Part shown: positions 25,173 to 50,040 of the stretch, piece by piece | How positions within the stretch are numbered: the first letter of the stretch is position 1 | How the letters are laid out: each line of letters begins with the position of its first letter | NCBI RefSeq assembly: GCF_035207705.1 | Contig: NZ_CP128187.1 | Location: 682,001-746,000, forward strand | DNA: 64,000 nt | Origin: Maribacter sp. BPC-D8 | GTDB lineage: Bacteria; Bacteroidota; Bacteroidia; Flavobacteriales; Flavobacteriaceae | Direction of reading: 5' to 3' | The notes under the pieces: model-generated | The model's database searches: none | What the model was told of the DNA's origin: nothing | Seen by the model: the letters and a program-made list of their open reading frames with translations, nothing else | Program-made: the position numbers and the translations under genes

Positions 25173-25805
25173 TTAATCGAAATTAGACCAGGTTCCTCGA
25201 TTCAAATTCCCTCTTAACTTCTCATCGTATAATCTATTAGCTACGAATAGTGTCACCCAAAATCTATCTTGTTTATAAAATTGATCATATGCCTTTTTTG
25301 GGTGTATTTGAATAACTCTATCTTCATCAAACCATGTTAACCTAGTTCCTTCAGCAAAAAGTTTTTCTCTACCTGTAGAATTAGAAGAATCTTTTATAAT
25401 AGGATTTCCGTATAATGAATTAAGTTTTGAAATCATTTTATTATAAGCAATACTATCTGTATTCTCATTTTTAGCATAAAAGATTAAGAATTCATTTTTA
25501 GAATTGGTTAAGGCTCCAATTTTCGAGAAATATAAATTGTCAAAAACAGCTAACTTATCAGTAGTGGAAGACCTTTTATGAGTGTATTCAGAAATTTCTT
25601 CTAAATCACCTCTAATATCATATTCATATTCTCCAATTTGATAATGCTCATAATTTGCATCATCAATATCAAAAAAAGAATCTACATTAAAATTATTATT
25701 TAGCTTTTCAAGATTTAAAATATCTTTTTTGAATTTTAAATTAGTTTGTCCATTACATCCAGTAATAATGGATAACATTATAAAACTTATGAATATTTTT
25801 TTCAT
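25173..25805 (-). CDS. Hypothetical lipoprotein (array gene)
   Basis: The protein has 210 residues. The signal peptide ends in SIITGCNGQ, a lipobox. The mature part is polar with a tyrosine-rich middle (YEHYQIGEYEYDIRGDL) and no recognised domain. Its stop codon lies 8 bases from the right box of element R1, which makes it the last cassette-like gene of the array on this side. Confidence 0.6.
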   Translation of the reverse strand: MKKIFISFIMLSIITGCNGQTNLKFKKDILNLEKLNNNFNVDSFFDIDDANYEHYQIGEYEYDIRGDLEEISEYTHKRSSTTDKLAVFDNLYFSKIGALTNSKNEFLIFYAKNENTDSIAYNKMISKLNSLYGNPIIKDSSNSTGREKLFAEGTRLTWFDEDRVIQIHPKKAYDQFYKQDRFWVTLFVANRLYDEKLRGNLNRGTWSNFD

Positions 25806-25896
25806 TTTTTAAATTAATGGTGGCATAAAAATATATAGACCTTTTGGTAAAGATCGAGACCCTTTTTACGTAAAGCTTTTATTTGGCTTAGTTTAT

Positions 25897-27003
25897 TTAT
25901 GAAAGACTCTTCAACGCTCTATTGATGATAATTACTTCTTTGTTATTTATTCCTCTTTCTGTAGAAGGGTAAAGTATTACCGCATAGTTGTTTTCAGTAG
26001 TTTTGTTAACGCTAGATATAATAAGTCTATCGTTAGGCATTTGCAGTATTTTATTAGAAACTAACTCTTTAAAACCGTTGATGTCTTTACTATAGAAGAA
26101 TTCTAATAATTTGTCTTTTTTAGTCGTAAACCAACCATTACCAAACTCACCGTTAAACACCGTAACATAAGTGTCATCTGCTATTTTCACAGGACTCCAA
26201 GTGTTATAAAAACTATTTTTAATGTCAATTAATTCTTGAGAGGTAATAGCACCAGATTTAGATATTGTCTTAATCGTAACTACTCCTTTTTCATTGTATA
26301 AGAGATAAGAATCGTTTTCAAAAGATAGATTCAATATTTCTTTAAAATATTGAGGAGCTAGTTTTATAGTTCTTTTCTGTAGTTCATTTCCTTTTGCATC
26401 TATTAATCTATGCAACCAACTATTATCTTCATAAGCTAAAAGATGAATTTCATTATCATTAATAAATATGTTATTATTTCTAGGAAGAGAAATTTTTACA
26501 TTGTGTTTTTTCTTTAATAAACCTTCTTTAAACTCCATCGAAAGTAGCTTGTCAGGTTTCGTATCTGACCATGAATCTGCAAAATGAAATACTGAATATT
26601 CATTTGATATTCCTATGAAATCGCCTACAAAAGGTCTATTACCTTTTTTGAGTACAATTTCTTCTCTATTAAATATAGGAATACTTATTTCTAGTTCTTT
26701 ATCAGGATGATATGGTATGATGGAAACATAATTTTCTAATGCAGGACTATGAAATAATGTTGGTAAAATACCATCATCTTCTTTGTAATTTTTATCTCTA
26801 CCATCAATGTCTATAACACTATATATTAAGCTATATTGACCCTCGTCATCACTATCAACGTAGTTGGCTAAAAGACTCTTTTCTTTATAATTTATACTCT
26901 TTTTTGCCGAAATGCCATATTCAGCGGTTAGGGTAGTTATTTTACCGAACTCAGAATCTTCAGTTACGTTAGAAAAACAATTTATTTTTTTAAGATTTTC
27001 CAT
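25897..27003 (-). CDS. Hypothetical cytosolic protein, probably beta-rich (array gene)
   Basis: The protein has 368 residues without signal peptide or membrane segment. The alternating short strands (FVGDFIGISNEYSVFHFADS, then DDTYVTVFNGEFGNGWF) suggest a propeller-like beta fold, but no repeat family is recognised. Between it and the next array gene (25806-25896) is a scrap, CATAAAAATATATAGACCTT, resembling the core of the palindromic elements. Confidence 0.55.
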   Translation of the reverse strand: MENLKKINCFSNVTEDSEFGKITTLTAEYGISAKKSINYKEKSLLANYVDSDDEGQYSLIYSVIDIDGRDKNYKEDDGILPTLFHSPALENYVSIIPYHPDKELEISIPIFNREEIVLKKGNRPFVGDFIGISNEYSVFHFADSWSDTKPDKLLSMEFKEGLLKKKHNVKISLPRNNNIFINDNEIHLLAYEDNSWLHRLIDAKGNELQKRTIKLAPQYFKEILNLSFENDSYLLYNEKGVVTIKTISKSGAITSQELIDIKNSFYNTWSPVKIADDTYVTVFNGEFGNGWFTTKKDKLLEFFYSKDINGFKELVSNKILQMPNDRLIISSVNKTTENNYAVILYPSTERGINNKEVIIINRALKSLS

Positions 27004-27189
27004 TTACTTCCTTTATTAATGCCAATGTTTAAAAGTGATGTATTTCAACTTCGTCACAAGCTAATCTATTAATTTTTTTGCTTTACCACAGCCAAATTCA
27101 TTTTAATCAAAAGCTTTGCTAGTCTTCGTTTTTCTAAGGGCTGTTTTTGACTACTATAAAAGATAAATTATACAGTAATGTTTCTTAGG

Positions 27190-28557
27190 TTAATCATTGC
27201 TTTCAATTATATGATCTTCATTTTCTACCCAAGGAATTTCAATAACAATTTTACCCGTTTTATCTATATAGTACCACGTACCATCTGAATTAAAACGTGC
27301 TAAACCAGTATTGAAATCTGCAGCGCTATAGTAAATAGGCGGAATAATTTCTTTACCTGTTGTATCTATAAATCCTTTTTTGCGATCTATTATAACCATT
27401 GCCACGCCTTCTTTAAACTTATAAATTTTATCGTATTTAATAGGTGTAAGCTCTTTTCCTGTTTGGTCTATTATGCCATATTTATCGTTTAATTGAACAA
27501 TAGCAACTCCGTTTGAAAAACTGTTAACGTAATAATATTTTAAGGGTATTACTTCTGTACCTGTTTTGTCAATAAAACCTCTACTGCCATTTACTGCGAC
27601 ACCTGCTAAACCTTCAGAAAAATTATAAACAAATTCATAGTTAAAAGGAATAACAATATTCTCACTCTTATCTATATAGCCCGATTTGCCATTTAAATAA
27701 ACAACTGCTTTACCATCTAAAAAATTTGAGGCAGCCTCATATTTTAATGGGATAACTTCTTCTCCATTTAAATTTATGAAGCCCCATTTTTCATTTAAAC
27801 TAACCGCTGCTAAACCTTCTGAAAATCCTTTAATTTCATCGTATATTAAAGGTGTTATTTTTTTACCTGTCTTATCAATAAAACCCCATTTTCTATTTGA
27901 TCTTACCCCTATAAAACCTTCAGATGAATCTTGCATTTTATCATATTCAAAGGCAGTTATTTCTTTACCTGTTTTATCTATAAAGGCGCCTTGATTGTTT
28001 AATACAACTACAGCTAAGCCATCTGTAAATTCATTGGTTTTCTCATAAATAAAGGGAATTATTTCTTTTCCGTTTTTATCAATAAAACCCCATTTACCAT
28101 TTAAACTAGCACCTGCCAATTCTTCTGAAAAACCTTCAACGGCATCATATTTAAGTGGAATAATTTCTTCACCGTTCGCATTTACAAAGCCCCATTTATC
28201 ATTTAAACTAACTTCTGCCAAACCTTCAGAAAAATCATAAATCTGATCATATTTTAAAGGTGTTATTTCTTTTCCGGTTTTATTTATAAAACCCCACTTA
28301 CCATTTTTGCGAACTTTTGAAAAACCATTTGAAAAATCATTGATATAATCATATTTTAGTGAAATAACTTCTTTGCCTTTGGTATTTATAAATCCCCATT
28401 TTTCGTTCCGTTGAACACCTGCTAAACCTTCTGAGAACGATTCGGCATCATCATATGTTAGCTTTATAACTTCATTGTTCTTTTGACTAAAAGCGGATAA
28501 AGGGAAAGTCATTAATAAAAAAAGAGTAATCTTAATTATATTTTGCATGTAAATCAT
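27190..28557 (-). CDS. WG-repeat protein, exported
   Basis: The protein has 455 residues from ATG 28557; ATG 28548 is an equally good start and opens directly with the signal peptide (MQNIIKITLFLLMTFPLSAF). The mature protein consists of twelve WG-type repeats of about 33 residues, each with a KWGFIDKTGKEI-like strand and a (F)SEGLAxV hairpin. WG repeats are beta-rich and common in Bacteroidota surface or toxin-linked proteins. The binding partner is unknown. The repeats are near-identical at DNA level in places, so the copy number may vary. Confidence 0.85.
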   Translation of the reverse strand: MIYMQNIIKITLFLLMTFPLSAFSQKNNEVIKLTYDDAESFSEGLAGVQRNEKWGFINTKGKEVISLKYDYINDFSNGFSKVRKNGKWGFINKTGKEITPLKYDQIYDFSEGLAEVSLNDKWGFVNANGEEIIPLKYDAVEGFSEELAGASLNGKWGFIDKNGKEIIPFIYEKTNEFTDGLAVVVLNNQGAFIDKTGKEITAFEYDKMQDSSEGFIGVRSNRKWGFIDKTGKKITPLIYDEIKGFSEGLAAVSLNEKWGFINLNGEEVIPLKYEAASNFLDGKAVVYLNGKSGYIDKSENIVIPFNYEFVYNFSEGLAGVAVNGSRGFIDKTGTEVIPLKYYYVNSFSNGVAIVQLNDKYGIIDQTGKELTPIKYDKIYKFKEGVAMVIIDRKKGFIDTTGKEIIPPIYYSAADFNTGLARFNSDGTWYYIDKTGKIVIEIPWVENEDHIIESND

Positions 28558-28662
28558 AGTTGTTAGTGATTCTGAATATTTATTTAATACTAATGGTGGG
28601 GTTGAATATAGTAAGGTGTTTAGAAAACTTTTTGTCTACTTACAAAGCGACATTTAATAGCT

Positions 28663-29670
28663 TTATTCATCTTCTTTTAATTCAATTTTACTGGTAGTAG
28701 TAACCAAGGTTTTAATTTGGTCACCAATACTTTTTTCAATTATAAATACTAGCGTATCTCCTATAGCTAAGTTATTTTTCTCTTCTTTGAAACTAGTCAT
28801 ATAATCTTCAGATAATCGATAAGATTTTCTGTCATCTCGTTCTGTTTTGTTGATGTCAATACGGTGTGGAACTCCTTGGTAAACTAATTGTTTAGCACCA
28901 TTACTATCTTCGAATCGATAAGCTTCTTCATTAAAACACCTTAAATCTACAGAAGTAACTTCATCAGAAAAACCAATTATCTGTACATAATACTGGTACT
29001 TTTTTGAAAAATTATTCCATTTTTCCATTTCCGGAGGAATGTTATTTTTTATGATACTATCTGTTTCTTTGCTATTAGAATCAAAGTCTTCAGGTAAAGA
29101 ATTTAAGAGTTCATCTCCAAAGGCATTCCAATCATAACTATCAAATTCTTTTGCTTGATACGTAGCAATCTCTTTTTGAAAATAATATTTACCCGAAGCC
29201 CAAAGTGTCACCATACCACCAGGCGCAATACCAACTCCAAATTCATATCCATAAACATCAGATCCACCGTATGGACTAAATGAGTGCATTTTTGATTTTT
29301 CTAACTTAAATAAACTATCTATTGTTTTATGCGGAAGCTCAAAAGTGCCTTTATATATTTTACGTTCACGAAGAGAAACCCAATGGCAGGATAAGGTATA
29401 TGGTGGAGGAAAATTTTCAAATTCATAATTACTGGCAAACCCCCAATATGCATTATCTTCTTTATAGTCTTCAGAAATAGTTATTGATTGATTTTTATTT
29501 TCAGTAAACAGTTCAAACTTGCCCATAATAGGGTGGTGCTCTGCTACACCAATACTAAGTGAATAATTTTCTCGCGCAAAGGTTTGGTATGTAATCATTC
29601 GCCATACATGTAACCCTATGAGAATTACGGTAATGATTAAAAAGGATAAAGTAAGTTTATGTATTCTCAT
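28663..29670 (-). CDS. DUF2931-like membrane-anchored protein
   Basis: The protein has 335 residues. An N-terminal membrane segment (residues 8-24) is followed by an extracytoplasmic domain with PPPYTLSCHWVSLRERKIYKG and GVGIAPGGMVTLWASG, which match the conserved features of DUF2931 proteins as I know them (a WxS..E...Y segment and an APGG.V.VW segment). DUF2931 proteins are common in Bacteroidota accessory islands, with unproven roles. It starts 3 bases after the stop of the small membrane protein at 29674, so the two are one transcript. Confidence 0.6.
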   Translation of the reverse strand: MRIHKLTLSFLIITVILIGLHVWRMITYQTFARENYSLSIGVAEHHPIMGKFELFTENKNQSITISEDYKEDNAYWGFASNYEFENFPPPYTLSCHWVSLRERKIYKGTFELPHKTIDSLFKLEKSKMHSFSPYGGSDVYGYEFGVGIAPGGMVTLWASGKYYFQKEIATYQAKEFDSYDWNAFGDELLNSLPEDFDSNSKETDSIIKNNIPPEMEKWNNFSKKYQYYVQIIGFSDEVTSVDLRCFNEEAYRFEDSNGAKQLVYQGVPHRIDINKTERDDRKSYRLSEDYMTSFKEEKNNLAIGDTLVFIIEKSIGDQIKTLVTTTSKIELKEDE

Positions 29671-29673
29671 ATT

Positions 29674-29970: not shown

Positions 29971-30037
29971 ATTTTAAATTATAATGGCACCGTTATTATT
30001 TTATTATTAATTACCTATAGAGGTGTTATCTGCAAAA

Positions 30038-30397: not shown

Positions 30398-30465
30398 AAA
30401 TGATATGTTTTAGGGTTAGCCTATAATTGTTTATTCGTGTTTTTTACGAATGTCATTTTAGAATA

Positions 30466-30948: not shown

Positions 30949-31023
30949 ATGAATGTATTTTCAATAGTACGTTTGCATTTCAAAAGTTCATAAATCATAT
31001 GCAAATTCTTCTAGTACGTATGC

Positions 31024-35576: not shown

Positions 35577-37190
35577 TTAGTGTTTTTCTTTTTGTGTTTT
35601 GCTAATTTTATCTAGTTCTTTTGATATTACAATCGCCTCTTTGACCACCTCTTCAGGGTACCCGTTAATTTGCAAAATTTTGATTGCATTTCTATTCTTC
35701 AGTTTGCCTTTTTTGAGCTTGTAATCAAAATCTACGGTTTTTTCGTTCACTATTTCACTAAAATGAAAGAGTTCATATTCTTCTGACAGCATCTCGGTTA
35801 ACTCTATATCATGTGTAGATACAAAAACTATATTACCATTTTTAGCCAAAGTCGATAAAACAGCCTTGCCAGCTGAAATTCGCTCTATAGTATTTGTGCC
35901 TTTGTAAATTTCATCTAAAAGAAAGAGATTGATATTTTCGTTTTCACTTTCAGTAATCATTTCTTTGATGGTTAACACTTCTTCAAAATAGTAACTCTTA
36001 TCATTCAGTAAGTCATCACTAATTCTTATCGCAGAAAATATTCGAGTTACCGGAAAAATCAATGATTTCGCAAAGCAAGTATTTATAGTTAGACCAGTAA
36101 TTAGATTTAATCCGATAGTTCTTATAAAAGAAGTCTTACCAGCCATGTTAGAACCAGTTAGTAGAATAGATTTATCAGACACCTCAAGAGTGTTCGTTGT
36201 ACAGTTTATAATTAATGGATGATATATATCTATAGCTTTAATCTTTTTGTCAGTATTATTTATTTCAGGAATACAGAAGTTATCAAGTCCCTTTCTTAAA
36301 GAAGCTATTGAGATCAACATATCTATACGCCCAACAAATTCAAATACGTTTGCTATTTCTTCTCTTTTAGTATTTAACCTATTTAAAACACCAAATAACA
36401 ATAAGGGTTCTAAGAGGAATATGATTTTGACTAACTCTAAAAATATCCATGCTATAGACTCAAATTCACCCTGAAGCTTCGTTTCTAACTTTAAAAACGA
36501 CATTCTATATTTAACTCTATTTATAGTCTTTATAAATCCAGCTAAATTGGGATTTAATTTTTTTAGTTCTTTAATCGAGTTAAAGTAGTTAGCAAAATTA
36601 TTTAACCTCAATAGCTGTGGAATAGCATCTATAATCGATAATAAATTTTTCTTGTTCCAAATATGAATAATAAAGTTAGTTGCAAAAACTCCGAGAAAAA
36701 GGAACAAGAAATTTGGGGAGAAAAACATTAATATAAAAGATAGTAAGCTGGTAAAAGATAATAATTTAACAACGAAAAACCATTTTGGAGGCTGCGGATG
36801 TTCTTTCTGAAAAAGCTCTGATATTCTATAAACATCATATTTTGATAACCTTTCTAACTGACTTTGAATTTTTATTCTAAAAGCAGCATCTTCAGATAAT
36901 AATTGAATAATCTCTTCATTAACACTAGTTTTTTGAGGATCTATTTCAATAGTTCTAAGATTATTATAAAGGTACTGTTGTCCAATTTTTGAAGTTGTTC
37001 TGTCTAAAAACATAAACAATTCTTCAAAATCTAAATCTAGACATGTCTTGTCTGATAGAACTTGAAAGGCTTTTGAATTATCTTTATTTTCAAAGTACTT
37101 TCTAATAGACTGAAAGTCAAAGGATTCATTTTTTAATTTTCCGAACGATTCGGTTAATCTTTTAGTTTGTTTCCTTTTTTTTCTGAACAT
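35577..37190 (-). CDS. MutS-like ATPase with central membrane segments
   Basis: The protein has 537 residues. The C-terminal half is a MutS domain V ATPase: Walker A GSNMAGKT at 346-353, with the MutS-type NMAGK, then Walker B NLFLLDEIYKGT (424-431) and FVSTHDIEL. The middle (about 140-175) contains two hydrophobic helices, and the usual mismatch-recognition domain is missing. This is the MutS-related family common in Bacteroidota, not a mismatch-repair MutS. Its role is unknown, perhaps at the membrane. Its stop lies 60 bases upstream of the paralogue gene's start. Confidence 0.85.
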   Translation of the reverse strand: MFRKKRKQTKRLTESFGKLKNESFDFQSIRKYFENKDNSKAFQVLSDKTCLDLDFEELFMFLDRTTSKIGQQYLYNNLRTIEIDPQKTSVNEEIIQLLSEDAAFRIKIQSQLERLSKYDVYRISELFQKEHPQPPKWFFVVKLLSFTSLLSFILMFFSPNFLFLFLGVFATNFIIHIWNKKNLLSIIDAIPQLLRLNNFANYFNSIKELKKLNPNLAGFIKTINRVKYRMSFLKLETKLQGEFESIAWIFLELVKIIFLLEPLLLFGVLNRLNTKREEIANVFEFVGRIDMLISIASLRKGLDNFCIPEINNTDKKIKAIDIYHPLIINCTTNTLEVSDKSILLTGSNMAGKTSFIRTIGLNLITGLTINTCFAKSLIFPVTRIFSAIRISDDLLNDKSYYFEEVLTIKEMITESENENINLFLLDEIYKGTNTIERISAGKAVLSTLAKNGNIVFVSTHDIELTEMLSEEYELFHFSEIVNEKTVDFDYKLKKGKLKNRNAIKILQINGYPEEVVKEAIVISKELDKISKTQKEKH

Positions 37191-38333: not shown

Positions 38334-38344
38334 TTGTAATGTTT

Positions 38345-38455
38345 TATATTTTTTATTGCAAAGCCAAATTGAAAGATTTGGTAGACTTAGTAAAAACGCA
38401 TTTACTCTTAAAATAAGTATTTTAGCCAGTATTAATTATAGCTTTTGTTTATAAT
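38345..38455. repeat. Remnant of an attC-like element core
   Basis: AAAGCCAAATTGAAAGATTT followed by GGTAGACTTAGTAAAAACGC corresponds in order and spacing to AAAGCTAAATCCCAAAGATT and TAGCGACATCATAAATATAC of the intact elements, and it has the same orientation. Outer boxes are not recognisable. It sits between the start of the lipoprotein gene at 37758-38333 and the stop of the next gene, as expected for a decayed copy. Confidence 0.4.
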
Positions 38456-41869: not shown

Positions 41870-42065
41870 CGTAGGCTACTTGCTGGTAATTTCTGCACTT
41901 TGCGTAGTATGTAGGTAAAGAAATTATTCACTTCCATCTACGCACAAAGTTAAATGGTTTTGTACGCCTGTACCGAAAAGGCACGTTCGGGCGTGTTTTT
42001 TCTTTTTTTGTATTAAAGCGAAATCCCAAAGATTCCGCTACCTCATAAAAATAGGCAAACCTTTT
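41864..42065. repeat. attC-like palindromic element lacking its right arm (R2)
   Basis: The left box ATTTAAC (41864-41870) fits the classical RYYYAAC consensus. Internal features are intact: the GTACGCC...GGCACGTTCGGGCG hairpin and the core GCGAAATCCCAAAGATTCCGC followed by TACCTCATAAAAATAGGCAA. The sequence then runs into the CPBP gene's stop without a right arm or box, so a deletion of about 40 bases is likely. Confidence 0.65.
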
Positions 42066-42076
42066 AATTAAGCACT

Positions 42077-42880
42077 TTAGTCCTCATTACTTATAGGTTT
42101 CGTTGCAAAACGTTTTTCTTTGTATGCTTTTCCAAAAATCAAGATTAAGATTAGAAACACGGATGCTGAAACAATTATATTGCCAAATTGATTATTCATA
42201 CTAGTAGTTGGGAATACAGAAATATATATTAAATCGTGTAATAGATGAAAAGCTATTGCGATATAAATAGAGTATCTAAACGCACCTATATAAGCTATCA
42301 TCAATGATAAGGCAACGCCCATTATTGGATATAAAATTAATCCTTCAATAATAGGTTGTTGAGCGAAGTTATATCCCTTCAAAGCTAACGGTAGATGCCA
42401 AAAACCCCATACAAGACCTAGTATTGTTACCCCTTTTAGATTCCCGTAAGTTTTAGTCAATTTTTCTTGTAAATATCCTCTCCAACCTATTTCTTCTCCT
42501 AGAACCAATAGAGTTATCAATGCAAGATTAGGAAGAGCTAAATTCTCAAGACTTAATAATGATAAATTAGGAACAGTTCTAAAATCAAGTTTTATTTGAG
42601 TTATTAAAATGATTGTTAGATAAAGTATTGGAAATAATATTGCTAATAAAATACTTCTTATAGATGTCTTTTTGAAGTATAAACTATGCCATGTGAGTTC
42701 TGTTTTTTTACTTACTATCAGAACTGATATAGTAGGTAAAAATGCCCAGATTAATTGCAGAATAAGACTTGTAATTTGATTATTTATAGTTGCTAAATGA
42801 AAAACAACTAGTCCGTAAATCCAAGAGATTCCTAAAACCCAGCATATGTATTTCTCCGCTTCTCCAACAACTAATTTCAT
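42077..42880 (-). CDS. CPBP-family intramembrane metalloprotease (array gene)
   Basis: The protein has 267 residues and about eight hydrophobic helices. The Abi/CPBP motifs are present: [10 protein letters not shown] (EExxxR), VWGFWHLPL (FxxxH) and FHLLHDLI (HxxxD/N), which form the metal site of type II CAAX-like proteases. In bacteria these proteins are linked to bacteriocin self-immunity and envelope functions. It is bordered by elements R2 and R3 and forms a typical one-gene cassette. Confidence 0.88.
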
Positions 42881-42909: not shown

Positions 42910-43104
42910 TACATCATTTTGGCAAAGCGTAGGGCGGAGGCAGGAAAATTTTTTGTTTCCTTTTGCGCACAAAGCGAAATCTTTTTGTTTTGTTTTTTTT
43001 TTTTTTTGTATCAAAGCGAAATCCCAAAGATTTCGTGACCTCATAAAAATACGCACACCTTTCGTTCAAGCCAAAAGCCGGTATCGTTTATAGGTTGTGT
43101 TGGG
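42910..43104. repeat. attC-like palindromic element (R3)
   Basis: It is bounded by TACATC (42910) and GTTGGG (43099-43104). GTTGGGT matches the classical GTTRRRY. Twenty-two bases separate the left box from the arm end (GGGCGG), and 21 on the right. The internal hairpin GCGAAATC-CCAAA-GATTTCG and a CAT-rich core are as in R5 and R7. It lies 30 bases from the CPBP start codon and 42 bases from the ParE stop. Confidence 0.8.
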
Positions 43105-43145: not shown

Positions 43146-43412
43146 TTATTGTAGTATTCTAATAACCTCAATTTCATCTTCAGAGATTGAGTGATAGAAA
43201 ATAATGTGCTTTCCAGATTTGATTCCAAGTAAACCTTTGCTAATTCCATCATATTCATTGCCGACATGTGGATTTTCTCCAATTCCATTGCAAATGAGCT
43301 TAATTATAGCATAATATTTGCCAGCCTGGGATTCCGACCATTCTTCAAAAGTATATATCCAAATATCATTTAAGTCATTAATAGCCTCTTGTCTAAAAAT
43401 AACTTTAGCCAT
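43146..43412 (-). CDS. parE: ParE/RelE-family toxin
   Basis: The protein has 88 residues. The ParE fold signature is clear: MAKVIFRQEAINDLNDIWIY, NPHVGNEYDGI, then GLLGIKSGKHIIFYH and the last strand EVIRIL. ParE toxins poison gyrase, while RelE relatives cut mRNA; the sequence is closer to ParE (no RelE catalytic set). It overlaps the antitoxin gene by 8 bases. Toxin-antitoxin pairs stabilise cassette arrays in chromosomal integrons, so the position between R3 and R4 is telling. Confidence 0.88.
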   Translation of the reverse strand: MAKVIFRQEAINDLNDIWIYTFEEWSESQAGKYYAIIKLICNGIGENPHVGNEYDGISKGLLGIKSGKHIIFYHSISEDEIEVIRILQ

Positions 43413-43653
43413 TCTTTCTTTTTTCAGATTTTAAATTTTTCAGATTTTCATCAAAGCTAAAATTTTCAACTCGCGGGCTATTTAAGCCTTCCTGAATGGC
43501 ATTTCTTAATGCAATTACTTTGCTTTCTTCATTTTCCAAAAGTCGTAGCCCCGCTCTGACTACTTCGCTAACATTTTTATAACGTCCAGCTGATACCTGC
43601 GCACTTATGAATTGGTCAAAATAATTTCCAAGTGATATCGATGTATTTTTCAT
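43405..43653 (-). CDS. parD: ParD-family ribbon-helix-helix antitoxin
   Basis: The protein has 82 residues. The N-terminal ribbon-helix-helix (NTSISLGNYFDQFI, then GRYKNVSEVVRAGLRLLE) is that of ParD/CC2985-type antitoxins, and the acidic, flexible tail (RVENFSFDENLKNLKSEKR) wraps the toxin. It precedes the toxin gene with an 8-base overlap, the usual order. A perfect inverted repeat 20 bases upstream of the start codon should be its own operator. Confidence 0.9.
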   Translation of the reverse strand: MKNTSISLGNYFDQFISAQVSAGRYKNVSEVVRAGLRLLENEESKVIALRNAIQEGLNSPRVENFSFDENLKNLKSEKRKNG

Positions 43654-43725: not shown

Positions 43726-43932
43726 CACAACAAAGTATCCATGTGTAGTGCGTTGGCAAGGAAACTTTTTGTTTCCGTCTACGCATGTAGCTAAAGCTTT
43801 TTGTTTAGTTTTATTTTTTCTTGTACAAAGCTAAATTCACACCCGATAGCTATCGGGATTAGCGACTTCATAAATATACACAGACCATTCGATTTAGCCC
43901 TAAAGTTCGCATTACGTTTGGGTGGTGTTAGC
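43726..43932. repeat. attC-like palindromic element (R4)
   Basis: The boxes are CACAAC (43726) and GTTAGC (43927). Arm lengths are 22 bases left and 20 right, measured from the AAC triplets to the GCG end. Internal hairpins are GGAAAC-TTTTT-GTTTCC and a long one built on GCTAAAT...ATTAGC that contains the perfect CCCGATAGCTATCGGG. The right box lies 1 base from the stop codon of the gene at 43934. Confidence 0.85.
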
Positions 43933-43933: not shown

Positions 43934-44980
43934 TTAGTTTTTTCTATGATATGTTAGTTTCAATTCAAATCCATTGACGTACTCTGCAAGTAACACTAAC
44001 TCGTTTTTTGATAAACTATCTATTTTAAATAAGTTAATAAGTGTTGTTTTTTCTTTTATGGTTAATGTATCTCTTCTTACCTGGTCTTTTGGCCAAGCGA
44101 CATCAGGTATTATCATTAGATTGCTTGTGCCACCAAGAATCCATTTTTTGATGGACTCAATATTTCCTCTTTTTATAAGAATACTGTCTTTACTTATTTG
44201 GAGAAAATCCAAAGTTGGTCTTTGATAACCCTTCGGTAAACGCATTTGTTCGATTCTTAGAGTATCACAAATTTTCAATACCCAATCTCCTAGTAGATTT
44301 TTTGGAGTTTCATGGTTTCGCTCTTTAAGCGTATAATTAAATTTCTGCTTGTCTTGAATCGATAAGTGCACCTTGTTATTTACCAATGAGTCAACCGATA
44401 GAGCTGTTATGTTTAGTTTATCGAAAACTAAAAACAAATTGTTCTTAATATTGAAAGTATTCCAATGTCCAACAGAAACTTCTTCGGTTTCGTGTAGGTA
44501 ATCGATAAATAGTCCGTTTTCCAAGAATTCGGTATTTACTAACGAACGATTGCCTTGCCATTCATATGATTTGTTGCTTGGATTCCAGTTTATTTCCGAC
44601 TTAAGTTGCTTTTGCTTTTTAAATACCTCTTTTGTGCTATTTTCAGTATCATAGCTAATTATAATACTATCATGCGATATTTCGTGAATATATATCCTGT
44701 TAAAGTTTTCATCTTCGGTTACAATTCTGTCCGATGTCCTTTTGAATTTGGTTTTAAAATACTTTGCGTCAGATCCATTTTTAGGATCTCCTGTCGTCCT
44801 AAAAAAGATACTGTCTCCAACTATCCGCATAATTTTATTATAATCCGCAATTCCTTGATTTGGGATTGTTTGAATTTGATATGCGCTTACCCAAAGTCCA
44901 TCCATATCATATTTTGGTTGAGTGCAGCCGTATTCTAGAATTAGCATGCAAATTATCGATATGAATATTATTTTTTTCAA
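43934..44980 (-). CDS. Hypothetical lipoprotein (array gene)
   Basis: The protein has 348 residues. The start is TTG at 44980, giving a normal signal peptide (KKIIFISIICMLILEYGCTQ) with a lipobox-like EYGCTQ. The mature part is mixed, with repeated short strands (DGLWVSAYQIQTIP and GDWVLKICDTLRIEQ). No family is recognised. The gene fills almost the whole distance between R4 and R5. Confidence 0.55.
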   Translation of the reverse strand: MKKIIFISIICMLILEYGCTQPKYDMDGLWVSAYQIQTIPNQGIADYNKIMRIVGDSIFFRTTGDPKNGSDAKYFKTKFKRTSDRIVTEDENFNRIYIHEISHDSIIISYDTENSTKEVFKKQKQLKSEINWNPSNKSYEWQGNRSLVNTEFLENGLFIDYLHETEEVSVGHWNTFNIKNNLFLVFDKLNITALSVDSLVNNKVHLSIQDKQKFNYTLKERNHETPKNLLGDWVLKICDTLRIEQMRLPKGYQRPTLDFLQISKDSILIKRGNIESIKKWILGGTSNLMIIPDVAWPKDQVRRDTLTIKEKTTLINLFKIDSLSKNELVLLAEYVNGFELKLTYHRKN

Positions 44981-44986
44981 ATTAAA

Positions 44987-45210
44987 ACTAATGTTTTAGC
45001 TATGAACAGTACGTGAACAAACTAGTTTGCTTTCCGCCACGCACATAGCGAAATCCTTTGGTTTTGCCCGTCCGTATCGAAAAGGCACGTTCGGGTGGTT
45101 TTTTTCTTTTTTCGTGTCAAAGCGAAATCCCAAAGATTTCGCGACCTCATAAATATACTCAAACCTTTCGTTTTAGCCTGAAGCCCGTCTTATTAATAGG
45201 TTGCGTTGTA
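44987..45210. repeat. attC-like palindromic element (R5)
   Basis: The right box GTTGTA (45205-45210) lies 10 bases from the stop of the split gene at 45221. The left box is diverged (ACTAAT at 44987-44992), but the following 22 bases align with R7 and R9. The right arm is 20 bases. Internal structures are the self-complementary GCAAACTAGTTTGC, a CCCG...ACGTTCGGG stem, and the perfect GCGAAATC-CCAAA-GATTTCGC hairpin. Confidence 0.8.
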
Positions 45211-45220
45211 CAAAGGTTTT

Positions 45221-45760
45221 TTAGTCTGTTGAGTACCATTTTTTTTCCAACTTATTATAATGATATTCATAGCCATAATAAGATTTAAACCCGATAGAAT
45301 AATTTTCATTTTCATAGAGTTCATAAATGTACTTTGTCCCAATACTTGTCCTTTCTGGCAAATCAACATTTGCTTCATTTTCAAGCTCAATTAATGATTT
45401 AGGATAAGAACCATTTCTCTCTCTATAAGCCTCAACTATTTCAACTAAAACAACTCCATTATGCTATGAATTCTCAATTTGCCATTCTCTAATTGGATTT
45501 GAAACCAACCAAATAAAAAGTAACTGAATAATCGATATAATAAAGTAGTATTTAAATTTTGTTGATTGCTTTATGTCAATGAGAATTGATATTACAAGAC
45601 CTATTAATAATACAATAAATAAAAACATTAAATAAAAAAACAGTCCTAATCCAAATTCCCAAACAAAGGAAAAATTCCAGACATATAACACTAAAAATAG
45701 AAAGGATAAAATACCAAAAAGTACTAGAGTAAACTTTTTTGGGTCTGAAATATTTTTCAA
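45221..45760 (-). pseudogene. Array gene interrupted by an in-frame TAG stop
   Basis: A frame starting at TTG 45760 gives 98 residues with two or three membrane helices (FTLVLFGILSFLFLVLYVWN and later ones) and stops at TAG 45464-45466. The same frame continues without shift for 80 more sensible codons (HNGVVLVEIVEAYRERNGSY, then PKSLIELENE, ending KKWYSTD) to TAA at 45221, 10 bases from element R5. The whole is therefore a protein of about 179 residues split by one amber codon. Either it is a recent point-mutation pseudogene or the stop is read through. Confidence 0.7.
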
Positions 45761-45783
45761 TTGATTTTATTTTTCAGCTTATG

Positions 45784-45913
45784 TAGAACGTTTATGTATA
45801 AGAATAGTTGCGGGTTTGTATGCGAGGATTTTCCGAAGGAAAATCAGACGTAACAAACAAGGAACTAACTTTGGTTTAGCTAAAACTAGCAATTTTTTTT
45901 ATATGGTGTTGTG
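45784..45913. repeat. attC-like palindromic element, short divergent type (R6)
   Basis: The boxes are TAGAAC (45784) and GTTGTG (45908-45913). The arm ends are TTGC on both sides (22 bases left, 19 right). There is one strong internal hairpin, GATTTTCC-GAA-GGAAAATC. It lies 6 bases from the stop of the gene at 45920 and 23 bases from the start of the split gene. It has the same layout and orientation as the others but a different internal sequence. Confidence 0.65.
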
Positions 45914-45919
45914 GTGAGT

Positions 45920-46630
45920 TTACCATAGTTCTTCCATTTGTTCTGGTGTATCTAAAAACAGTATCCACTTTCCATTTTTTCTTATATATGTGTTTTCTGT
46001 TAGCTGAATATTGTCTTGGACTGAGGCATCATACATATGTTTTGCAACAGGTTTCATTGTTCTAAAACTTTCCATTAACTTCATATCAGAGAAGAATAGC
46101 AAATTTTTTGCGGGTATCGATACAGCAATAGTATCAGATTTTACAATTTGCTGAACTGTATTATCCCAAAATTCATCTACTAACATCATAGAAGGCGGAT
46201 AGTTTGCATCCATTTCTAGTTTATAGAAAGGTTTTGATTCTGTATTCTGTTGAGAAAAATCTTGCACACTGACACTATTTCTTTCATTGAAGCGATCTGT
46301 CAGGTTTCTCATGGCAGTATTATCAACTATTTCTCTATCGAAATTGAATTGGTCAAGATGAGATTGCGAAATCATTTCAAACTTGTCTCCCATATCTAAC
46401 ACATAACATTTCACAATACCTTCTGCTATTGGTTCCATTATGATAGGATTTTTGTTTTGAGACATTTTTATTCTTTCGTCATCGACAGATTTAATTACTG
46501 GAAAAATACTTCTTCCAATAGATACATAGCCTTCTCTCTCTTTCTTTATTTCTTCGACAGGTGTTTCAAGTCCTTTTTTAACTTTATGGTTGACTGGCTC
46601 TTTTTTAAATAATTTCTTCAGAAAACTCAT
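45920..46630 (-). CDS. DUF1444 (YtpQ)-like protein (array gene)
   Basis: The protein has 236 residues and is cytosolic with a basic N-terminus (SFLKKLFKKEPVNHKVKKG). The middle and end resemble DUF1444/YtpQ proteins: CYVLDMGDKFEMISQSHLDQ, then PPSMMLVDEFWDNTVQQI, followed by DTIAVSIPAKNLLFFSDMK. The function of that family is unknown. It forms a single-gene cassette between R6 and R7. Confidence 0.5.
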   Translation of the reverse strand: MSFLKKLFKKEPVNHKVKKGLETPVEEIKKEREGYVSIGRSIFPVIKSVDDERIKMSQNKNPIIMEPIAEGIVKCYVLDMGDKFEMISQSHLDQFNFDREIVDNTAMRNLTDRFNERNSVSVQDFSQQNTESKPFYKLEMDANYPPSMMLVDEFWDNTVQQIVKSDTIAVSIPAKNLLFFSDMKLMESFRTMKPVAKHMYDASVQDNIQLTENTYIRKNGKWILFLDTPEQMEELW

Positions 46631-46675
46631 ATCCTATTTTTTTTATGTTAGTTAAATCGCATATATGTAATTCAA

Positions 46676-46869
46676 TACAACACAGTACCTATGAACAGTA
46701 CGGGAGCAAACTAGCGTTTACTTTCCGCCACGCACAAAGCGAAATCTTTTGGTTTTGTTTTTTCTTTTTTTGTGTCAAAGCGAAATCCTAAAGATTTCGC
46801 GACTTCATAAAAATACGCAAACCTTGGCGTTTAAAACCTAAGCCCGTATTGTTTATAGGTTTTGTTGCC
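46676..46869. repeat. attC-like palindromic element (R7)
   Basis: The boxes are TACAAC (46676-46681) and GTTGCC (46864-46869). The left arm ACCTATGAACAGTACGG and the inverted right arm ACCTATAAACAATACGG differ only at two positions (G against A). Arm lengths are 22 and 20. The internal hairpin is GCGAAATC-CTAAA-GATTTCGC. The right box lies 11 bases from the stop of the next gene. Confidence 0.88.
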
Positions 46870-46880
46870 AGTAGTTGTTT

Positions 46881-47270
46881 TTATTCCGTTTCAAATATTT
46901 CACGAATCTCAGGATTAATTTCTTTCCAATTTTTTTCATCCTGTTTTGTCCAAATTTCCGTTTTATTAAATACACTACCAGTCGGCCAAATAAGTCCTGC
47001 TCCGATTGCTTTTGCGTATAATTTATGGCTTTCGTCAACAGTCAATTTTGAGAAAGCAAAACATTTCCATTTCACTACTTTATAACTCCACCAAAGCCAA
47101 CCGATGCAGATCGCAATAATAACAGCGACCATCACAATAAAATCCACTTTCTCTGACTTCAGAACATTTTCAGCATACCAATTAGTGATAAATCCACAAA
47201 AGACAACGAAAGTAACTAGAGGTCCATAAACCATAATCAGTCCTTTGTTTATCAACTTACTTAAGTTCAT
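46881..47270 (-). CDS. Small membrane protein, unknown (array gene)
   Basis: The protein has 129 residues with two hydrophobic helices (about 13-33 and 43-64), followed by a soluble tail that contains AIGAGLIWPTGSVFNKTEIW and ends in an acidic helix (WKEINPEIREIFETE). The family is not recognised. The second IS copy has inserted 39 bases upstream of its start codon, between it and element R8, and may alter its expression. Confidence 0.55.
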   Translation of the reverse strand: MNLSKLINKGLIMVYGPLVTFVVFCGFITNWYAENVLKSEKVDFIVMVAVIIAICIGWLWWSYKVVKWKCFAFSKLTVDESHKLYAKAIGAGLIWPTGSVFNKTEIWTKQDEKNWKEINPEIREIFETE

Positions 47271-47348
47271 TTAGTTAAATTTTCGAATTTAAAAAGATGG
47301 TTGAGTAAATGTCACGTCCTAAAATACGGCTACAGATTAATATTAGTT

Positions 47349-48206
47349 TTAAGCGGCATATTGATGCACGTAATCTGGTGTTTTATAATCTAAAGATAAA
47401 TGCAATCTTTTAGAGTTGTATAGTTTGATTGCATTTTTGGCTGCTTTTTTAGCATGTACCACGCTGGTAAAGGTTTGGTCAAGATAAAATTCATCTTTTA
47501 GAATACCGTTTACCCTTTCGGCTAGGGCGTTTTCATAGCAATGGTTTTCTTCAGTCATACTGATTTTAATTTTCTTTCTTTTTAGTATTTGGGTATAGAC
47601 ATTACTGCAATATTGAATACCTCTGTCGGAGTGATGAATAAGGCTGTCAATGTTCTTAGCATTGTAAATAGCTTTATTTAAAGCTCTGACACAACCTTTT
47701 AGTTCAAGACTATCACTCAGGTCGTATCCAACGATTTTACGGGAGTACATGTCCGTAATCAATGCCAGGTAACAGAATCCTTTTATGGTTCTGATATAGG
47801 TAATATCGGATGCCCAAACCTGATTAGGTCTATTGATCTTCAAGTCTTTTATAATGTTATTATACTTATAGAATCTGTGATATGAATTGGTAGTTCTACA
47901 GGAGTATCTCTTTCTTCTTATGAGCAAATTGTTTTCTCTTAAGATACTGAATAGCTGGTCTCTACCTACTTTAAGGTCGTACTTATAAAACTCATCTTTT
48001 AATGATCTCATGAGTTTTCTGGTGCCTTCTCTGGGCAGTGTTCTTCTACTTTGCCGGACAAGTTCGATTATATCCTGTTCTATCTGTTTTTTGATTAAAA
48101 ACCTTTTTTGGTATTTGTAATAGGCATCTCTTTTCAGATCAAAGGCATTACAGATAGTACCAATTGAATACAGCCTTTCATTACGGTTTATCGGTGCTAC
48201 TTTCAT
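47349..48206 (-). CDS. IS3-family transposase OrfB, copy 2
   Basis: The protein has 285 residues from ATG 48206. A TTG at 48209 is in frame but unlikely. It keeps the DDE set (VWASDITYIRT, HHSDRGIQYC, ENALAERVNG) and differs from copy 1 at only a few residues, for example ERLYS against ERLLS and CSNVYTQILKRKKIKIS against KKIEIS. Because of the A8 run it is no longer reachable by a simple -1 frameshift from orfA. Confidence 0.92.
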   Translation of the reverse strand: MKVAPINRNERLYSIGTICNAFDLKRDAYYKYQKRFLIKKQIEQDIIELVRQSRRTLPREGTRKLMRSLKDEFYKYDLKVGRDQLFSILRENNLLIRRKRYSCRTTNSYHRFYKYNNIIKDLKINRPNQVWASDITYIRTIKGFCYLALITDMYSRKIVGYDLSDSLELKGCVRALNKAIYNAKNIDSLIHHSDRGIQYCSNVYTQILKRKKIKISMTEENHCYENALAERVNGILKDEFYLDQTFTSVVHAKKAAKNAIKLYNSKRLHLSLDYKTPDYVHQYAA

Positions 48207-48219
48207 CAAGGCTTTATGT

Positions 48220-48600
48220 TTAAGTTTTTTTTAATTCCTCAACATCTCTATAGCCCAGGTTCTCAGCAGCGACCTCGAGATAGCTATCGGTCACCAGTTT
48301 GTCCAGGTCCTTTTTAATAAGAAGGTCCTTAAGTTGCTTTAGCTCTTTTTGCAGGGCTTTGATACGGGAAAGTTCATCGTCTGTTTGCACGGTTACACGG
48401 GTGTTCATTAGATCTTTACGATCGTACTTTTTTATCCATACGTTTATAGTACTGGATTGTATACCGTAAGTTAATGCAATTTGTCTTTTGGAATGGTTTC
48501 CTTTGGTTAGTTCTGCCAATACCTTGAGCTTAAAGCTCTCACTATAGCGTTTTACATATCCATCATTTTTATACATATACTTGAAGTGTTTTGTATACAT
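48220..48600 (-). CDS. IS3-family OrfA, copy 2 (frame altered at A8 run)
   Basis: The protein has 126 residues and is identical to copy 1 up to DVEELKK, then ends early (T, stop) because one A is missing in the run that normally allows frameshifting. A -1 shift here meets TGA just before the orfB start, so fusion would need +1 or -2 slippage, or transcript slippage. The helix-turn-helix and the zipper are intact. Confidence 0.92.
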   Translation of the reverse strand: MYTKHFKYMYKNDGYVKRYSESFKLKVLAELTKGNHSKRQIALTYGIQSSTINVWIKKYDRKDLMNTRVTVQTDDELSRIKALQKELKQLKDLLIKKDLDKLVTDSYLEVAAENLGYRDVEELKKT

Positions 48601-48624
48601 ATTTCAGGACGGGTCAAAATGCAC

Positions 48625-48811
48625 TACAACGTTCAGGCTATGATTAGTGCGGGGCGGAAATCCGACGGATTTCCTGTCTTGCGCTAAGCTAAACCTTTGG
48701 GTTTCGCTTTTTCTTTTTTTTGTCCAAAGCTAAATCCCAAAGATTTAGCGACATCATAAATATACACAGAACTTGGCACCTAAGCCCGCATTAAGTATAG
48801 GCATTGTTGTA
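48625..48811. repeat. attC-like palindromic element (R8)
   Basis: The boxes are TACAAC (48625-48630) and GTTGTA (48806-48811). The arms are GGCTATGATTAGTGCGG on the left and GCCTATACTTAATGCGG for the inverted right one, with lengths 22 and 20. Internal hairpins are the perfect GGAAATCC-GAC-GGATTTCC and GCTAAATC-CCAAA-GATTTAGC, the latter with a T/A pair where R5 and R7 have G/C. Confidence 0.9.
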
Positions 48812-48946
48812 ATCAGTAGTGACACGTATGAGTAAGGACGAACGATTGCGATTCTATAGTTTTTCCGTCCGAGTAAAGTCCATCTGCGTAACAGTTGCGT
48901 TTGAGTGAAGTCCATTTGCGCAAACTCGCTAATAGTCCATTGGGAA
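48812..48946. other. 135-bp spacer between element R8 and the small membrane protein gene
   Basis: It holds two direct copies of GAGT(A/G)AAGTCCAT(C/T)TGCG about 34 bases apart. All three minus frames are partly open here, but none gives a convincing protein. It could be the decayed 3' part of the upstream gene. Confidence 0.35.
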
Positions 48947-49249
48947 TTAGATTCCGTTCGCATTTAGAAATGGTATAGAAATAGCAATTCCCACAACTAA
49001 CACAATTGCCATTTGATATTTCTTTTTTGCAGAATCTGCTACACCGCAAAATATAACTGTGCTTAGCACCAAATAAATTAATGACATGTATAGATCAATT
49101 TTCACTCCAAACATACCCGTAAACATTAAAGAAAGTACAATATTGAAACTCCAATAAGTTGAAAGATGATTATTAAAACTCATGTAAAAAATCACAGAAT
49201 TAACTATCAAATAAATGATGGAAAAGATAATTACATTCTTAGTTGGCAT
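48947..49249 (-). CDS. Small membrane protein, unknown (array gene)
   Basis: The protein has 100 residues from ATG 49249, 19 bases from the left box of R9. Four hydrophobic segments alternate with short loops (NVIIFSIIYLIVNSVIF, LMFTGMFG and VVGIAISIPF). The family is unknown. The gap of 135 bases to R8 is longer than for other cassettes, so the gene may once have been longer. Confidence 0.5.
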   Translation of the reverse strand: MPTKNVIIFSIIYLIVNSVIFYMSFNNHLSTYWSFNIVLSLMFTGMFGVKIDLYMSLIYLVLSTVIFCGVADSAKKKYQMAIVLVVGIAISIPFLNANGI

Positions 49250-49268
49250 TTAATTTTGAGCTATTGAT

Positions 49269-49462
49269 TACAACGTTTTGGCTAAGCGTAGTGCGGAGGC
49301 AAGGAAACTTTTCGTTTCCGTCTGCCGACGTAGCTAAAGCTTATTGTTTTGCTTTTTCTTTTTTTGTCCAAAGCTAAATCCATAAGATTTAGCGACATTA
49401 TAAATATACACAGACCTTTCGGTTTTGCCCTAAAGTCCGCATTACGTTTAGGCTGTGTTGTA
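49269..49462. repeat. attC-like palindromic element (R9), best-preserved copy
   Basis: The boxes are TACAAC (49269-49274) and GTTGTA (49457-49462). The arms are GGCTAAGCGTAGTGCGG on the left and GCCTAAACGTAATGCGG for the inverted right one, 22 and 20 bases from the AAC. Internal hairpins are GGAAAC-TTTTC-GTTTCC and GCTAAATC-CATAA-GATTTAGC. It lies 8 bases from the stop of the gene at 49471. Confidence 0.9.
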
Positions 49463-49470
49463 CACCGTTT

Positions 49471-50040
49471 TTACTCGCACGAATTAAGAGTCAACCATTC
49501 CACACAAACCGTTTTTTCCACTTCATCAAATTCAAAATCCGTTATCTTATTTTCGCCTGAACAGTTTAGTAAAATGTAATCATCGGATAAGTTATTCGTG
49601 TAATCATATCCCAGTAGATTAGCATAATGTTTGATTGGTAAGCATTGTTTTTTGTCCATAACATCAAGTTCATTAAACTCCTCTATCGAAATGCTTTTGT
49701 AAACAGGCAACCTTATTTTCCCCAAGTCAATTTTTGTCGAGTCAGTTACTTTTATATTTTTTATTATAACTTCAAGTTCTTTAAAATCAGAAGGGTCAAA
49801 TCCTTGATTTAAATTAATTACAAGGTCAAATGTTTTTTCACTTTTAGGTAGTTTCAAATAGAAATTCCCGTCAAAATCAGCGGTTGATTTTTCAGTTCCA
49901 TTTAGAATATAAATTTTAGCTCCAGGATATTCGGTTCCATCCCGAAACAGTTGTCCAGATATTTGCGCATTGGCAATTCCGCTGAATATTAATACTAAAA
50001 TTGATATGTAAAATGTCTTTCTCAAAATGGTGTACAACAT
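49471..50040 (-). CDS. Exported protein with carboxypeptidase-regulatory-like domain (first array gene)
   Basis: The frame is open from ATG 50094, but ATG 50040 is preferred because it gives 189 residues with a normal signal peptide (KTFYISILVLIFSGIANAQ). The mature N-terminus, ISGQLFRDGTEYPGAKIYIL followed by TADFDGNFYLKLP, is the beta-sandwich pattern of CarboxypepD_reg-like domains, typical at the start of Bacteroidota surface proteins. The C-terminus carries four cysteines. The start codon overlaps a box GTTGTA (on the minus strand, ATGTTGTAC), so the gene begins exactly at a presumed cassette border. Confidence 0.7.
   Translation of the reverse strand: MLYTILRKTFYISILVLIFSGIANAQISGQLFRDGTEYPGAKIYILNGTEKSTADFDGNFYLKLPKSEKTFDLVINLNQGFDPSDFKELEVIIKNIKVTDSTKIDLGKIRLPVYKSISIEEFNELDVMDKKQCLPIKHYANLLGYDYTNNLSDDYILLNCSGENKITDFEFDEVEKTVCVEWLTLNSCE

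Follow-up and report, generated by a model that had tools for sequence, protein, structure and literature searches.

We found that the window, by which we mean the whole 64,000-nt stretch of Maribacter sp. BPC-D8 DNA analysed here, very probably (roughly 90%) carries an integron-like cassette array that has lost its own integrase gene, and we propose that its cassettes are moved by a recombinase. Judged from its sequence, the array appears to resemble an integron both in look and in evolution. On the minus strand, leftwards from 50069, an attI-like site is followed by eight attC-like sites (49460 to 41899) between cassettes, each cassette consisting of a palindromic site and one gene or, in some cases, more, and then by a decayed tail. 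A sequence-only reading of the window had claimed an array of palindromic elements at 25173 to 50040 and had taken it for an integron-like or CALIN-like array whose attC-like sites are of a new type. The array of elements is real, lies at that place and exceeds chance, as examined with a DNA profile and with gene-border counts against random positions, and the interpretation was largely right. The claimed span, however, has to be narrowed: the array does lie within it, but intact or nearly intact sites are confined to 49.5-41.9 kb, and the array starts at the attI-like site at 50069-50036. From 41.9 to 25 kb, same-strand genes are accompanied by one profile match and, by eye, one or two further decayed sites. 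The profile was a DNA HMM seeded with seven window elements (R2-R5 and R7-R9) and then iterated; its matches in the window, intact as well as partial or decayed, are all on the minus strand. With eight attC-like sites and no recombinase, the window fits the definition of a CALIN (at least two attC sites and no integrase nearby). Note that an Rfam search over 24-50.4 kb gave only two matches, both below gathering score, and a known RNA family was thus rejected as the identity of the elements.

All features of the window described below are on the minus strand, and the sites bearing an R number were located by the DNA profile. The array is headed by an apparent 3' remnant of a deleted integrase gene (50121..50138), which consists of the codons N P L D S and a stop in the frame of the intact recombinases of loci L112 and L164. 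It is followed by a putative integrase-attI leader with two palindromes (50036..50120), laid out like the region behind the recombinase stop in same-genus loci. The attI-like site proper (palindrome and CTATGTT) leads into cassette 1, which starts at the GTT at 50038; its gene of 190 codons (49471..50040; weak CarbopepD_reg_2 match, below cut-off) has an ATG that spans the attI junction. The start GTTGTACACC and the end GGTGTACAAC of cassette 1 are exact complements. Site R9 (49271..49460) separates it from the cassette 2 gene (48947..49249; 100 aa, without Pfam match), and here the 7 nt behind the start GTT (GTAATCA) complement the 7 nt ahead of the end AAC (TGATTAC). Beyond site R8 (48627..48809) lies an IS with HTH_Tnp_1 and rve transposase ORFs (47304..48612), whose end is 11 nt from the CGTT of R8. 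Next come the cassette 3 gene (46881..47270; 129 aa, without Pfam match), site R7 (46678..46867), the cassette 4 gene, a DUF1444 gene (45920..46630), and a site of a shorter, 126-bp type with GTTC as right box (45786..45911). The cassette 5 gene is a 98-aa ORF, apparently interrupted (45464..45760), and site R5 (44989..45208) has a right box decayed to ATTAG. The cassette 6 gene (43934..44980; 348 aa, without Pfam match), site R4 (43728..43930), cassette 7 with a parDE-type toxin-antitoxin pair (43146..43653; ParD_antitoxin 1.7e-25, ParE_toxin 3e-11), site R3 (42917..43102) and the cassette 8 gene for an Rce1-like CAAX protease (42077..42880) follow. The compact array ends with R2 (41899..42105), a degenerate site and the last one that can be recognised there. 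In the tail, the profile found decayed sites at 38335..38449 (E 1.2e-11, partial) and at 24932..25161 (R1), and a decayed fragment at 21353..21449 (E 1.1e-7, partial), beyond the range of the earlier reading.

Sites in the arrays are palindromic and about 120-240 bp long, and sites of the same type within the genome are up to 95% alike. With one window element as DNA query, 29 matches were obtained in the same genome, in several clusters of uniform orientation each, and matches were present in 33 of the 36 genomes of the genus, own genome counted. AAC was found in 93 of 93 full-length elements and GTT in about 90 of them. The R boxes are off the canonical consensus, as had been claimed: among the 192 elements, out of 277, that are full-length with both AAC and GTT, only 13 have GTTRRRY and 7 have RYYYAAC. 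In these 192 elements, inner-stem wobbles numbered 410 on the bottom strand and 27 on the top strand, and two G-T pairs recur there; in 86 of 120, the bottom strand had the lower folding energy. Within single elements, the complementarity of the outermost 4 bases was 1.71, not above that of shuffles (mean 1.56, maximum 1.82), which led to the test of cassette-end pairing described below.

The sequence-only reading had suggested a search for a recombinase of the IntI type in relatives. A tyrosine recombinase (375-aa or 355-aa class; about 355-400 aa) does lie at the 5' end of the arrays of relatives, but it is not of the IntI type. It is present in 28 of the 36 genomes of the genus (E 1e-40 or better), and arrays headed by it are found across many genomes of that genus as well as in further families of Bacteroidota. 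The window keeps only the last codons of such a gene. Specifically, the remnant and leader are 95.7% identical over 94 nt to the same-genus locus L164, covering the last 12 nt of its recombinase gene and the leader, and a 60-nt match to L112 (93.3%) takes in the last 20 nt of its recombinase gene, suggesting that the array once had an integrase gene, of which the last codons (NPLDS, stop) and the leader are left. In 21 of 24 codirectional loci, which are mainly of the 375-aa class, a palindrome (stem of at least 8) is followed by a GTT 41-47 nt past the recombinase stop, so that sequence comparison places an attI with a cassette junction at GTT beside codirectional integrases; for divergent recombinases, palindrome search found no attI. 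Four features had escaped the sequence-only reading: the attI-like site, the remnant of the integrase gene, the wobble signature of the bottom strand and the unlikeness of the recombinase to IntI. The genome of the window has four tyrosine recombinases, none within the window, and gave no match to the recombinase of the arrays; its arrays may for this reason be relics, and they are probably frozen or dependent on a recombinase supplied in trans.

Sites were present in 26 of 32 recombinase loci by one or other of two detection methods, and no site in array orientation was found upstream of the recombinase, where 0.5-17 kb were available. The remaining six loci lacked sites in the orientation assumed: L106, L111, L154 and L158 have less than 2 kb downstream in each case, L166 has two sites that are opposite to the assumed orientation and codirectional with its recombinase, and L167, with a 253-aa recombinase remnant, has no site on either strand of its 17-kb locus. 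In other genera, where sites of about 125 bp follow recombinases, 13 of 25 loci bore 38 sites (a single site only in 5 of the 13), all downstream and codirectional; shuffles gave 0 and 18 control loci gave 2.

The array recombinases are without the 42-residue insertion of IntI. Between two anchors, the 12 genus recombinases examined have 51 residues and 26 relatives have 51-56, versus 93 (74-94) in 15 IntI, two of which (L257 and L262) were assigned to IntI only after the tree. Where IntI4 has 63 residues the array recombinases have 20, and they do not possess the IntI-specific additional domain near patch III. Three of them scored 206, 187.8 and 199.8 bits against TIGR02249, under its curated cut-off of 265 bits. 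In a quick tree, the 15 IntI formed one starred clade that excludes the array recombinases. A joint clade of both was nevertheless unrejected by the AU test (p-AU 0.207), and we therefore keep an independent origin as a novel possibility, at slightly less than even odds: Bacteroidia may own a second integron, independently evolved, with an Xer-type recombinase without the IntI domain, folded single-stranded sites, G-T pairs replacing extrahelical bases, and a cassette-specific stem completed by the circle. Another explanation would be that these are ordinary integrons whose canonical IntI is lost or acts in trans, the adjacent Xer-like recombinase being incidental. Their sites share AAC and GTT boxes and bottom-strand bias with attC, those of the Cytophagales relative Rufibacter (L201) are about 60 bp, a size possible for canonical attC, and in other parts of the phylum canonical IntI is frequent (93 of the 345 genomes drawn). 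However, TIGR02249 with pieces scored apart gave no IntI above cut-off in 249 genomes drawn from the family, the 95 genomes that had a match in the draw of 345 include only one of the same class (G317), and the array head is occupied by another recombinase with the attI-like site behind it. We consider this explanation improbable.

We also compared cassettes between arrays. At a threshold of 80% over 250 nt, 84 cassette pairs were alike, and only 11 of them qualified as whole-cassette pairs, for which the match must start within 15 nt of a site; most of the others begin inside gaps. In 8 of the 11, which are comparisons among 6 cassette families, identity breaks at the upstream GTT, with 37-40 of 40 nt alike from the GTT and 7-27 of 40 ahead of it. 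Of the three pairs without a common GTT junction, two reflect internal homology, and in one copy of the third (L098_4/L101_3) GTT is replaced by GCT. A 677-bp cassette and its 188-bp site are 100% identical in two arrays of genome G018, and over 585 nt the cassette 5 region of the window shares 95% identity with a cassette of genome G004, in a match that begins beside a common GTT. The profile, a DNA HMM instead of the covariance model that the sequence-only reading had suggested, likewise confirmed that relatives' arrays differ in gene content between like sites. These comparisons indicate that units of gene plus attC-like site have moved between arrays. In a genome whose sites of one type are so alike, homologous recombination between the repeats could by itself shuffle cassettes, with no site-specific reaction; however, GTT junctions also join unlike partners, such as the attI-like palindrome and an attC (upstream, 13 and 7 of 40 nt agree), and this position of the junctions makes homologous shuffling very unlikely.

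When cassette starts were paired with their own ends, a run of at least 5 was found in 87 of 135 cassettes, versus 5 of 135 for the neighbour's end and a mean of 3.2 (maximum 8) in 500 shuffles. The ends pair across about 11 positions, a cassette-specific 7-mer included. Such pairing within the cassette would be expected from a circular intermediate, unlike a MITE. The 48 cassettes without end-to-end pairing have longer gaps (median 1716 versus 718), so missed sites are a likely cause.

Orientation and gene-border position were examined in 78 fetched loci (24 genomes), 64 of which held the 277 elements; note that related rows raise all counts. No element lies against the orientation of its locus, and none of the 55 loci with at least two elements is mixed. 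A generic site finder over the 64 loci gave 223 sites in array orientation versus 1 opposite, and ORFs of at least 80 aa in 192 gaps under 3.5 kb were on the same strand in 272 cases and opposite in 22. A same-strand ORF of at least 60 codons ends upstream of 119 of 201 full-length elements, and for 113 of these the stop and the left box are at most 50 nt apart. Random positions, 5 per element, gave only 147 such ORFs in total (72 within 50 nt), and the antisense side gave one for 19 elements (15 within 50 nt). Since the loci were selected for holding elements or recombinases, adjacency rates are not genome-wide. Palindromic, multicopy and about 60-240 bp long, the elements might have been MITEs or REP-like repeats fallen at gene ends, for which the sequence-only reading had named mixed orientation and independent insertion as signs, but a MITE has matching terminal inverted repeats of its own and either orientation, whereas these elements keep a single orientation per locus, sit behind stop codons, travel with whole cassettes that join at GTT, and have outer bases matching the cassette's other end rather than their own, and this origin was rejected as almost inconceivable.

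Anatomy, single orientation, the recombinase at one end, the attI-like site, GTT junctions, exchange, end pairing and wobble asymmetry, which the sequences show, fit the following mechanism, the most likely one. Acting at the GTT boxes of adjacent sites, the recombinase would release the cassette between them as a circle and would insert circles at attI or at another site. The circle would rejoin the cassette's own two ends and so complete the long hairpin, whose bottom strand, marked by the fixed G-T pairs, would be the folded substrate. Catalysis by the neighbouring recombinase, the single-stranded substrate and the existence of circles are what we infer here.

A domain specific to IntI has been held necessary for integrons (Messier and Roy 2001, as cited in PMC9668308 and PMC2426708). 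The considered part of the IntegronFinder 2.0 paper reports one complete integron in Bacteroidetes proper, in Salinibacter (PMC9024848), and that of Smyshlyaev et al. 2021 (PMC8138268), on an integron-like subgroup of simple tyrosine recombinases, describes no Bacteroidia cassette arrays, attI or attC. Among the matches listed in open-licence PubMed Central papers, no earlier description of such arrays was found. Standard integron searches probably overlook them because the kind of recombinase and the build of the sites differ. Here, a recombinase without the IntI domain heads the arrays, and cassette exchange is legible in the sequences. If this recombinase catalyses the reaction, natural arrays that lack the IntI domain would offer a test of what that domain is needed for, and a large pool of mobile genes, probably missed by current models, would become visible.

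XerA acts in chromosome dimer resolution, and we know of no cassette arrays associated with it. The best catalytic-core matches of the array recombinases, in sequence and fold, are XerA-type (PDB 4a8e and 5hxy; NCBIfam NF040815, whose cut-off two of three array recombinases passed), and these agree with the array recombinases in length where IntI has its insertion. Matches to the solved XerA chains begin only at residue 108 or 116, so these chains are without the N-terminal extension; compared with IntI, the array recombinase has no additional domain, and its N-terminal part is about 80-110 residues longer. The pdif modules of Acinetobacter plasmids are similar in being small gene modules, often toxin-antitoxin, between tyrosine recombinase sites, but their 28-bp XerCD sites alternate in orientation. 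In contrast to integrons, the attI-like site contains a palindrome and is found downstream of an integrase gene that reads in the same direction, and the attC-like sites appear to differ from canonical attC in R boxes, in the recurrent G-T pairs and in the pairing of cassette ends. As in integrons and CALINs, a recombinase gene and attI lie at one end, codirectional cassettes have a palindromic site behind the gene, junctions fall at GTT, sites have AAC and GTT boxes with a folding bias towards the bottom strand, some cassettes are toxin-antitoxin pairs, and arrays exist without an integrase.

The system of the window and its genus probably works like an integron, a reading to which we give a probability of about 0.9. 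In the window, an attI-like site (50069-50036, minus strand) stands at the head of the array, and downstream of it eight attC-like sites (49460 to 41899, minus strand) separate the cassettes, which are mostly single-gene and include a parDE-type pair, a CAAX protease, a DUF1444 protein and several unknowns. The sequence-only reading had placed a cassette array over 25-50 kb; its right part stands, with attC-like sites between minus-strand cassettes, but leftwards beyond 41899, where the genes are still on the minus strand, the sites are only decayed or partial (at 38.4, 25.1 and 21.4 kb). Genes on the minus strand there encode a WG-repeat protein with 12 repeats and a 102-bp DNA periodicity (27190-28557), and a protein with MutS domain V in its C-terminal part (35577-37190).

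The window also retains a two-palindrome leader and the terminal integrase codons NPLDS-stop, with 95.7% identity over 94 nt to L164, a fetched locus. Because this leader and these codons remain, the window array is, as far as its sequence can tell, an integron-like array after integrase deletion. No recombinase of this kind was found in the own genome, where two further loci (L086 and L089) also have an attI-like site at their start and no recombinase ahead of it. The stretch from the end of the integrase to cassette 1 contains two tandem attI-like palindromes in the window (50036-50120) and in L164, and one in L112.

The elements gave 29 matches in the own genome and, counting the own genome, occur in 33 of the 36 genus genomes. 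A DNA HMM profile started from seven window elements detected 277 elements in 64 of 78 loci fetched from 28 genomes. As the sequence-only reading had claimed for the window, they share one orientation within a locus, which was mixed in none of the 55 loci with at least two elements, and the layout of a gene followed by a site was likewise found, since 113 of the 119 elements with a callable ORF (201 examined) stand behind a stop codon. A generic finder, run without the profile on boxes and a 15-nt inner stem only, reported 223 sites in array orientation versus 1 opposed (in L153) in the same 64 loci; its scoring favours bottom-strand wobbles, so that the same site is never reported on both strands. 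As controls, it found 2 sites in 18 loci around other recombinases and none in Markov-shuffled sequence of the loci sampled from other genera. Sites of ~125 bp and ~190 bp are mixed within single arrays of the genus (e.g., L108, L150, L152 and L164), so a single recombinase probably accepts both.

The inner stems of 192 elements contain 410 differences that would form G-T pairs on the bottom strand versus 27 on the top strand, and the 97 distinct inner stems contain 215 versus 24. A wider first count, which reached into the spacer, gave 572 versus 86 in 120 elements, and in 86 of 120 it was the bottom strand that had the lower folding energy. Two recurrent G-T positions, five apart, were seen in stems of quite different sequence.

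By the geometry of the array, the right end of an element already belongs to the cassette that follows. The 7 nt before the opposite box (AAC) paired in a run of at least 5 with the 7 nt after the junction box (GTT) that starts their own cassette in 87 of 135 cassettes, versus only 5 of 135 with the start within the same element; 500 shuffles gave a mean of 3.2 and a maximum of 8. In a slightly larger set of 158 cassettes, 109 pair at 6 or more of 7 positions, with 72 different 7-mers; in these 109, position 8 was never paired and positions 9-11 were paired in 84-94%. Since the cassette start pairs with the end of its own cassette, the functional hairpin would be complete only once the cassette ends rejoin in a circle. 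A MITE origin of the elements was rejected, because their ends match their own cassette rather than their own element, and a MITE would not give such pairing.

We compared cassettes among arrays and found 815 pairs with any similarity, 84 of them at ≥80% identity over 250 nt; 11 of the 84 are whole-cassette pairs, in which the shorter cassette is covered to within 80 nt and the match starts at most 15 nt from a site. In 8 of the 11, from six cassette families, identity breaks at GTT, with 37-40 of 40 nt alike after it and 7-27 of 40 before it, and the pairs L088/L173 and L108/L183, beyond the 11, also break beside a shared GTT. The remaining pairs start mostly inside gaps, and three of these are IS copies. 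Window cassette 5 has 95% identity over 585 nt to a cassette of genome G004, and this similarity begins at the 126-bp site, next to a GTT that both have. Furthermore, two arrays of one genome (L095 and L113 in G018, at 0.04 and 3.09 Mb of a 4.02-Mb contig) have a 677-bp cassette in common that is 100% identical, its 188-bp site included, with flanks alike at 13 of 40 and 18 of 40 nt.

The window has two copies (47304-48612 and 18731-20035, both minus strand) of an IS with two ORFs, HTH_Tnp_1 and rve, of which the own genome has five more full copies and one fragment. All seven full copies have the same position (CGTTG, 6 nt, A, 3 nt, then the IS end), with a 3-bp target duplication at six of them as judged by eye, and the IS appears to target cassette junctions. 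Two copies (window 20045 and L297) lie behind an ACGTTG core with no recognisable attC-like site ahead; these cores may be decayed sites or secondary cassette insertion points.

A recombinase match at E 1e-40 or better was present in 28 of the 36 genomes of the genus. Recombinases of the 375-aa class are codirectional with the array, whereas those of the 355-aa class diverge from it. No elements lay upstream of the recombinase in the 21 recombinase loci with profile hits. With profile and generic finder together, sites were found in 26 of 32 recombinase loci, none upstream in array orientation; four site-free loci (L106, L111, L154 and L158) have <2 kb of downstream sequence each. The two sites of L166 are opposite to the assumed orientation, that is, codirectional with its recombinase, and L167, a 253-aa recombinase remnant, has no site on either strand. 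Past the stop codon of 21 of 24 codirectional recombinases, a palindrome (stem ≥8, at most one mismatch) is followed by GTT at 41-47 nt. L110 has a weak palindrome with GTT at 47 nt, in L164 there are two palindromes and the core lies at 82 nt, and L163 yielded none by this definition. By script, the best stems of the 24 loci are of 17 kinds, or about ten after trimmed variants were merged by eye.

The 120 best recombinase homologues listed bear names such as Maribacter, Zobellia, Gelidibacter, Psychroflexus, Cellulophaga and Formosa. Near-identical recombinases in another genome of the genus indicate that the window's genus is probably Maribacter. In 25 Bacteroidota loci of other genera, chosen from 80 named genome loci, the generic finder detected 38 sites of 59 to 192 bp in 13 loci, all of them downstream of the recombinase and in its direction. 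At least two sites are present in 8 of the 13 loci, which include those of Winogradskyella, Seonamhaeicola, Algibacter, two Flavobacterium species and Rufibacter. Canonical IntI was above the cut-off in 93 of 345 phylum genomes drawn, nearly all outside the window's class, to which one IntI-matching genome belongs. A passage of one paper gives Salinibacter as the only complete integron reported in Bacteroidetes proper (PMC9024848). None of the matches listed from open-licence PubMed Central papers describes the present system.

For three recombinases, the best NCBIfam model was the XerA-like NF040815, described there as site-specific tyrosine recombinase/integron integrase, and two of the three passed its cut-off; TIGR02249 gave 187.8-206 bits, below its cut-off of 265. 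Sequence and fold searches ranked XerA and IntI4 first, with low TM-scores (about 0.4 by query length) from a middling model (pLDDT 75.5, pTM 0.53). A quick tree of 71 rows puts 15 IntI, of which two received that label only after the tree was built, into one starred clade; the grouping of this clade with archaeal XerA has 86% and no star. The recombinases of Bacteroidota fall outside the IntI clade, with no single clade of their own seen and the 355-aa kind apart from the 375-aa kind; constraining them together with IntI was not rejected (p 0.207). The sequence-only reading had suggested a search for an IntI-type tyrosine recombinase in relatives, and a tyrosine recombinase does head their arrays, but not one with the IntI insertion. 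An additional domain is given as the defining feature of IntI in the relevant passage of PMC9668308, and by its domain content the recombinase is outside the IntI family: IntI has 93 residues between the anchors, whereas the recombinases of the genus have 51.
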